From Dehalococcoidia bacterium (lineage in GTDB: Bacteria > Chloroflexota > Dehalococcoidia > JAUSIH01): a DNA stretch of 32,994 nt. A model generated the notes under the pieces. The model had not been told where the DNA came from and did no database searches. It saw only the letters and a program-made list of their open reading frames with translations. The translations under genes and the position numbers were made by a program. The DNA is taken from contig JAUSIH010000111.1 in assembly GCA_030648205.1 (NCBI GenBank), forward strand, positions 1 to 32,994, written 5' to 3'. Positions 1,081-22,901 of this stretch are shown here, in pieces; the stretch's first letter is position 1, and each line of letters opens with the position of its first letter.

Positions 1081-1175
1081 TATCCCCCGGCCCCTTCTCC
1101 TCAAGGAGAAGAGGAGTTTAAACGAGATTCTGGGAGGACACCTCCCAGGCCCTCCGGCGGGCCGCAAGGCGGCCC
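1081..1175 (+). repeat. Three-hairpin dispersed repeat (family A), copy 1
   Basis: Three successive perfect hairpins occupy the left part of the gap between the HIT gene and the acyl-CoA dehydrogenase: 1094-1111 (CTTCTCC, loop TCAA, GGAGAAG), 1130-1148 (CTGGGAGG, loop ACA, CCTCCCAG) and 1059+100 to 1175, i.e. 1159-1175 (GGGCCGC, loop AAG, GCGGCCC). The same architecture recurs at 1331-1428 (inverted), 4395-4482 and 22788-22881 with different stem sequences. The unlabelled stretch 1176-1330 holds no gene I can support. Confidence 0.75.
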
Positions 1176-1330
1176 TGCACCCCCTTAAATACCTGTGCGG
1201 TATCCGGCTTCAGACAGTAAGCCCCTCTCCCTGCTCAGGAGGGTGTCACCATTGCTATGGCATTGCTTCCACCAGGCCCTTGTACCGCGGGACGACCACG
1301 GCTTCGCTTGTTCTCCGCGCGGGGGAGTCC

Positions 1331-1428
1331 AGAAGGGGTGTTCCCCTCTGGCGGGGGTTGGGGGGACACCCCCAAACCCCTTTTCCCTTCCCCCGCTCCC
1401 TGAGGGAGCGGGGGACCGAGGGGGTGAG
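1331..1428 (-). repeat. Three-hairpin dispersed repeat (family A), copy 2, inverted
   Basis: Read on the minus strand the order is hairpin 1 (1390-1414, an 11-bp stem with a 3-base loop), hairpin 2 (1358-1375, TTGGGGG paired with CCCCCAA) and hairpin 3 (1334-1347, AGGGG paired with CCCCT). The outer end reads CCCTCACC-like on the minus strand, as in the other copies. It faces copy 1 across about 155 bases, making a large imperfect inverted arrangement in a 370-base gap. Confidence 0.75.
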
Positions 1429-4280: not shown

Positions 4281-4394
4281 GACGTCCACCTCCTTGGAGT
4301 AAGGATTTCGCCGGACGGTGAGGCGCGCTTATTCTAGCCCGGCGCGTATTGGAGTGTCAACCTGGGGATACATCCCCTCTGGCGGCGCAGATAC

Positions 4395-4482
4395 CTCACC
4401 CCCTAGCCCCCTCTCCTGTAGGAGAGGGGGAAAAACAATCTGGGGGATTCCCCCAGACCCCCGACAAAGGGGCTGTGCCCCT
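4395..4482 (+). repeat. Three-hairpin dispersed repeat (family A), copy 3
   Basis: Begins CTCACCCCC and holds three perfect hairpins in series: 4407-4430 (CCCCCTCTCC, loop TGTA, GGAGAGGGGG), 4439-4457 (TCTGGGGG, loop ATT, CCCCCAGA) and 4468-4482 (AGGGGC, loop TGT, GCCCCT). It lies in the 426-base gap between the RAM gene and the luciferase-like gene, which contains no gene I can support. Confidence 0.8.
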
Positions 4483-4523
4483 CTGGACTCCTCAAACCCG
4501 CTGTCCGAAGGAGGTCCGCCACC

Positions 4524-22780: not shown

Positions 22781-22787
22781 GAGTGGC

Positions 22788-22881
22788 CTCACCCCTGTAT
22801 TCCCCTCTCCTCAGGAGAGGGGAAGTGAAAGGAAGACGGGGGACACCCCCGTCATCCCCCGGCTGGAAACCCACGGTTTCC
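22788..22881 (+). repeat. Three-hairpin dispersed repeat (family A), copy 4, inside the phage cluster
   Basis: Starts CTCACCCC. The hairpins are 22802-22822 (CCCCTCTCC, TCA, GGAGAGGGG), 22835-22853 (GACGGGGG, ACA, CCCCCGTC) and 22865-22881 (GGAAACC, CAC, GGTTTCC). It fills the gap between the last two phage genes. Confidence 0.8.
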
Positions 22882-22901
22882 CGCGCCTTCCCGTGACGCC
22901 T

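Follow-up and report, generated by a model that had tools for sequence, protein, structure and literature searches.

A repeat that occurs four times in a 32,994-nucleotide stretch of DNA from a Dehalococcoidia bacterium (Chloroflexota; contig JAUSIH010000111.1, assembly GCA_030648205.1; hereafter the window) is a composite of three motifs, in each of which a hairpin adjoins a segment that covaries with its arms and is predicted to act as the third strand of an intrastrand triplex. One subtype of this cassette is packaged as an IS5-type miniature inverted-repeat transposable element (MITE). An earlier note on this DNA described the three hairpins and overlooked the third partner beside each stem. 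We think it probable that the three-triplex cassette, whose fold is predicted from sequence, has spread as cargo of miniature IS5-type transposons. We are more tentative, stopping just short of calling it likely, about whether selection keeps the triple-helical fold itself, so that in each of the three motifs of a mobile cassette third strand and duplex arms have coevolved.

The coordinates, hairpin order and stems that the earlier note gave for the four copies were all recovered. Its claim of perfect pairing needs small corrections: hairpin 3 of copy 2 is bulged and that of copy 3 has one A·C mismatch. The edge of copy 1 reads CTTATCCC, not CTCACC, and the edge as such, which had been taken for an outer border, instead serves hairpin 1 as its third strand; hairpins 2 and 3 have third strands as well. 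The features are as follows, ‘third strand’ being a predicted role throughout.

1079–1087, + strand: copy 1, third strand of hairpin 1, CTTATCCCC
1091–1114, + strand: copy 1, hairpin 1, CCCCTTCTCCT / AGGAGAAGAGG
1130–1148, + strand: copy 1, hairpin 2 (arms 1130–1137 and 1141–1148), CTGGGAGG ACA CCTCCCAG
1150–1155, + strand: copy 1, third strand of hairpin 2, CCCTCC, the parallel complement of GGGAGG
1159–1175, + strand: copy 1, hairpin 3, GGGCCGC / GCGGCCC
1178–1184, + strand: copy 1, C-rich edge 3′ of hairpin 3
1420–1430, − strand: copy 2, third strand of hairpin 1, CCCTCACCCCC
1390–1414, − strand: copy 2, hairpin 1, CCCCCGCTCCCT / AGGGAGCGGGGG
1358–1375, − strand: copy 2, hairpin 2 (arms 1369–1375 and 1358–1364), TTGGGGG / CCCCCAA
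1353–1357, − strand: copy 2, third strand of hairpin 2, CCCCC
1330–1350, − strand: copy 2, hairpin 3, CAGAGGGG / CCCCTTCTG, with a bulge
1322–1328, − strand: copy 2, third strand of hairpin 3, ACTCCCC
4394–4403, + strand: copy 3, third strand of hairpin 1, CCTCACCCCC, the mirror of CCCCCTCTCC with A for T
4407–4430, + strand: copy 3, hairpin 1, CCCCCTCTCC / GGAGAGGGGG
4439–4457, + strand: copy 3, hairpin 2 (arms 4439–4446 and 4450–4457), TCTGGGGG / CCCCCAGA
4458–4462, + strand: copy 3, third strand of hairpin 2, CCCCC
4465–4485, + strand: copy 3, hairpin 3, CAAAGGGGC / GCCCCTCTG, with one A·C mismatch
4487–4492, + strand: copy 3, third strand of hairpin 3, ACTCCT
22787–22795, + strand: copy 4, third strand of hairpin 1, CCTCACCCC
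22802–22822, + strand: copy 4, hairpin 1, CCCCTCTCC / GGAGAGGGG
22835–22853, + strand: copy 4, hairpin 2 (arms 22835–22842 and 22846–22853), GACGGGGG / CCCCCGTC
22856–22860, + strand: copy 4, third strand of hairpin 2, CCCCC
22865–22881, + strand: copy 4, hairpin 3, GGAAACC / GGTTTCC
22886–22892, + strand: copy 4, C-rich edge 3′ of hairpin 3, CCTTCCC, a weak match to the third-strand code

Each hairpin is accompanied by a segment that mirrors its pyrimidine arm and covaries with that arm in the parallel sense. The segment is the CTCACCCC edge 5′ of hairpin 1 and a C-run 3′ of hairpin 2 or 3, most often across a linker of 3 nucleotides (nt). Sets of G arm, C arm and C-run at hairpin 2 in the genome that contains the window (its own genome) include GGGGG/CCCCC/CCCCC, GGGAGG/CCTCCC/CCCTCC, GGGG/CCCC/CCCC and GAGGG/CCCTC/CTCCC. 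Purine runs that contain an A are matched by their parallel complement at an offset of 3–4 nt in all but one case, which has CCTTCC, and an antiparallel copy fits none of them (three of the runs listed belong to hairpin-3-type stems, and a GAGG run in locus L012, a mis-parse, was not counted). The pairing of GAGGG with CTCCC was seen in two different genomes. Shifted Watson–Crick pairing of the G-run with the downstream C-run, which is possible for GGGAGG, is impossible for GAGGG/CTCCC and was rejected. At hairpin 1 the edge mirrors the 5′ arm, as in CCTC[A]CCCCC with CCCCCTCTCC, CC[A]TCCCCC with CCCCCTTCC and CCTC[A]TCCCC with CCCCTTCTCC. Among copies with a match of 0.7 or better, T or A stands opposite arm T in 156 of 170 cases (85 T, 71 A) and C opposite arm C in 374 of 394. 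Arms and third strands of hairpin 3 pair as AAGGGGG/TATCCCCC, AGGGA/ACCCT and AGAGGGAG/ACACCCTC.

When each arm was compared with its own third strand and with shuffled partners, alongside an antiparallel control that shares the same ancestry, all three hairpins stood out. Z was 7.4 in the own genome and 7.9 across the class for hairpin 1 (antiparallel control 2.6), 9.3 and 3.6 for hairpin 2, and 4.7 and 6.7 for hairpin 3 (control −0.2 and −1.8); within subtypes, hairpin 3 gave 8.2 in parallel and −2.0 in antiparallel orientation. No shuffle reached the observed value in any of these tests except for hairpin 2 in the class set (2 of 1,000). This three-way covariation is our strongest new claim; what most weakens it is that independent events cannot be counted from shuffles. 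The element might instead be a plain hairpin MITE or similar repeat in which only the stems matter, the mirror-image C-runs being either decoration passed on by descent or a side effect of C-rich composition. All copies share ancestry, C-runs give easy mirror matches, and the antiparallel control of hairpin 2 is also raised (Z = 7.7 in the own genome) because run lengths are shared. We nevertheless regard such an explanation as unlikely: asymmetric runs fit the parallel order only, hairpin 3 separates the two orientations (4.7 to 8.2 against −0.2 to −2.0), also within subtypes, and the copying of one arm onto the other at replication, which perfects a palindrome, cannot write a mirror image.

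The stems themselves are maintained by compensation. Across 18 pairs in 92 distinct own-genome copies, standard pairs make up 96.1% of pair cells, compared with 84.3% in shuffles, and double changes are present in 17 of the 18. Because double-change cells number 206, against 53.7 in shuffles (0 of 500 reach 206) and 6–19 in slid-register controls, the stem changes are truly compensatory, and the earlier proposal that the folded form is what is kept is borne out. Neither outcome that the earlier note named as refuting, random stem differences or hairpins that travel separately, was seen. The three hairpins usually occur together, a hairpin 3 of 6 bp or more following in 57 of the 92 copies, but partial copies exist.

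A hairpin flanked by a mirror-image pyrimidine segment is what an intrastrand triplex looks like in sequence, and the general form of such a motif, a hairpin with an adjoining third strand in purine-motif code, is what we find here. The cassette would then comprise three intrastrand triplex motifs, each a hairpin plus the mirror image of its pyrimidine arm. Since arm T faces A nearly as frequently as it faces T, a purine motif on the G-rich complement fits better; on that strand each segment would act as an antiparallel purine-motif third strand (G·G–C, A·A–T or T·A–T). We hypothesize that the triplexes form while the strand is single, during replication, transcription and possibly transposition, and that the folds may stall polymerases and destabilise the site, by analogy with what has been proposed for a motif of Escherichia coli. 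H-DNA and other mirror-repeat triplexes likewise have a pyrimidine mirror repeat, which here consists of arm and third strand; the cassette differs in that a single chain, the hairpin, supplies both strands of the duplex, and single-stranded DNA would therefore suffice for the fold.

The E. coli motif, TMECO, is a proteobacterial intrastrand triplex (PIT) motif (5′-CCCTCNCCC N3–6 GGGNGAGGG N3 GGGNGAGGG-3′) that forms a stable triplex in vitro, is intergenic and associated with variable E. coli loci, and has neither promoter or terminator activity nor a link to transposases (Holder et al. 2015, PMC4666352). Like TMECO, hairpin 1 and its edge lie between genes, have a T-then-A third-strand code and, read on the G-rich strand, run from a C-stem through a short loop to a G-stem and then, after about 3 nt, to a G third strand. 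Whereas E. coli copies of TMECO are single or in inverted pairs, three motifs are strung together here, two of them with the third strand on the opposite side; and whereas TMECO was never found with transposases, one subtype of the cassette is framed by IS5-type ends. The exact TMECO consensus had no match in own-genome or other loci, and IS5-type ends were absent from the five E. coli TMECO loci. In E. coli K-12 those copies (L364–L368) form inverted pairs of about 85–130 bp.

Bacterial triplex motifs are abundant, stable in vitro and tied to unstable loci, and have hitherto lacked both evidence of folding in vivo and a route of spreading. The hundreds of natural variants of the cassette amount to a mutational scan of the triplex fold, and the spread of one subtype is explained by a transposon, so that folding in vivo and the way of spreading both become testable. 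If selection does act on the fold, the variants would give comparative support, without recourse to chemistry, for the formation and importance of intrastrand DNA triplexes in cells, and would show that these triplexes spread by transposition. Among the papers searched, none tied triplex motifs to transposons, or MITEs to Dehalococcoides.

The repeat family is large. More than 50 places in the own genome match a single copy by blastn. The covariance model and genome search that the earlier note had proposed recovered all four window copies (E = 2e-22 to 5e-8) and 96 places in 2.69 Mb at E ≤ 1e-3, two of which are reverse-strand echoes, leaving about 94 copies. The model covers hairpins 1 and 2 and was built from an ungapped seed, MAFFT alignments having put the stems in the wrong place. 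At E ≤ 1e-6 it found the cassette in 73 of 245 genomes and 61 of 159 genera of the class, with few matches elsewhere in the phylum; the own genome is the sole member of its genus, family and order in the collection. Matches to a pattern of hairpin 2 plus downstream C-run likewise fell mostly in Chloroflexi or Dehalococcoidia records. Of the own-genome copies in the end survey, 54 belong to a CTCAC subtype, as do all four window copies, and 24 to a GACCAT subtype.

The GACCAT subtype is an IS5-type MITE, since its ends and YTAR duplications are shared with full-length IS5-family elements. Its copies lie within gene-free elements of about 150 bp with terminal repeats CAGGSTGYTGAAAAA and a 4-bp YTAR target duplication, the known target duplication of IS5 (PMC10359306). 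Another genome, G022, has several copies that are 97–100% identical over about 150 bp and bounded exactly by CTAGCAGG...CCTGCTAG. In a set of 72 elements, CAGGGTGTTGAAAAA and CAGGCTGCTGAAAAA form the ends, with four-letter flanks CTAG, TTAG and CTAA; read as a duplication, these flanks agree in 190 letters against 175.8 in shuffles (P = 0.004), and read as an inverted repeat they give P = 0.24. That the terminal CTAG is part of the inverted repeat was ruled out, as the flanks behave as a duplication, also at full-length insertion sequences (ISs). In the collected loci, no transposase lay between two such ends. When genomes with the cassette were searched for DUF772, both G022 and G056 proved to have full-length elements (about 1.36 kb) with identical ends, which NF033581 places in the IS5 family (256–263 bits; cut-off 140). 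A wider search found more; taken together, these full-length ISs have the same terminal inverted repeat and target-site duplications CTAA, CTAG, TTAG and ATAG. Seven identical 1,304-bp IS5-family copies (L325, L341, L345, L347–L350) in G123, a one-contig genome without cassette matches, nearly all have clean 4-bp duplications (CTAG, CTAA and ATAG). The subtype thus has both a terminal inverted repeat common to an autonomous element and the 4-bp duplication of the parent family, and IS5-type transposases presumably moved the small elements in trans. In size, lack of genes, ends and duplication it resembles other IS5-family MITEs; what sets it apart is the covarying triple-motif cassette inside, which is seen elsewhere between other ends (CTAGTGTCCTG, TTGTCTCAAAAG) or with none.

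Several points weigh against these proposals. For the fold, the antiparallel control of hairpin 2 is less clean than the others; the count of independent third-strand changes is uncertain because shuffles do not model descent; and the E. coli motif formed no stable triplex in double-stranded DNA or in in vivo footprinting (PMC4666352). For the transposon, the four window copies lack IS5-type ends (at best 4–6 mismatches to a 14-letter consensus); the left end is kept in 7 of 24 GACCAT and 0 of 54 CTCAC copies of the own genome, in which no DUF772 or close IS5 transposase was found; and the cassette occurs in 6 of 17 IS-bearing genomes against 73 of 245 overall, with no preferential co-occurrence. 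The window’s own copies are presumed to have been mobile: they may be old copies with eroded ends, or arrivals in other carriers. Different pairs of ends frame a small number of CTCAC copies (L120 with CTAGTGTCCTG, L246, L207 with TTGTCTCAAAAG, and some in the own genome with CTAGTGTCCTG), suggesting that the cassette has travelled in more than one carrier; the terminal inverted repeats of L120, L246 and L207 possibly belong to other MITE families.

The earlier idea of a mobile element thus holds for the GACCAT subtype, with its IS5-type ends and YTAR duplications, and fails for the repetitive extragenic palindrome (REP)-like mechanism that was proposed with it. Like REPs and bacterial interspersed mosaic elements (BIMEs), which are mobilised by a Y1 transposase (the REP-associated tyrosine transposase, RAYT), the cassette is a short, high-copy intergenic palindrome, and GTAG REPs have been reported in Chloroflexi (PMC3733652). 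The cassette ends differ from those of REPs, however, the terminal repeats and target duplications being IS5-type instead, and the REP-type transposase, looked for as PF01797, had no match in the 95% complete own genome, whereas five control genomes were positive. We therefore give mobilisation by RAYT almost no credence. With neither a Y1 nor a DUF772 or close IS5 transposase there, the own-genome copies look like remains.

The copies lie between genes: of 82 that could be classified with a codon-usage gene finder, 80 are intergenic, although non-coding DNA makes up only 23% of the sequence. This location, with the stable GC-rich hairpins, could fit an RNA element, either a bidirectional terminator or an mRNA stabiliser, as could the strand bias among 60 tandem pairs of the own genome, of which 40 have the G-rich strand as sense strand (P = 0.013). 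The role at transcript ends raised in the earlier note is not supported: neighbouring genes are convergent in 11 cases, divergent in 9 and tandem in 60, matching a background of 21:22:130 in the loci, with no enrichment at gene 3′ ends or between convergent genes and no T-tract. The window has no Rfam match, the 71 A against 85 T opposite arm T fit a DNA purine motif on the other strand and not a pyrimidine motif on the cassette strand, and the related TMECO has neither promoter nor terminator activity (PMC4666352). An RNA role consequently seems very unlikely to us.

In the window, copies 1 and 2 are flanked by a HIT-domain gene and an acyl-CoA dehydrogenase, copy 3 by an AsnC-type and a luciferase-like gene, and copy 4 by two predicted genes that have no Pfam match or were not searched against Pfam. 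The HIT gene is predicted to start at 1078, directly beside the predicted third strand of copy 1 (1079–1087), and the cassette therefore occupies the expected promoter or ribosome site.

In several copies (L095, L104, L106, L012, L017, L091 and L128) a second repeat (about CTCCTTCGGCTTCGCTCAGGACAGGC) is inserted into the tip of either hairpin 1 or hairpin 2, as if it targeted hairpin loops. The 24-mer TCTGGGGGAYACCCCCAGACCCCC, which is hairpin 2 with its third strand alone, occurs in loci of the actinobacteria Streptomyces and Nocardia (L192, L206, L219, L231, L233, L243, L250 and L254), apparently inserted within genes (for example, that of an SMR-type transporter in L206) and often 3′ of GTGTTY; the motif is identical to that of the Chloroflexota cassette.
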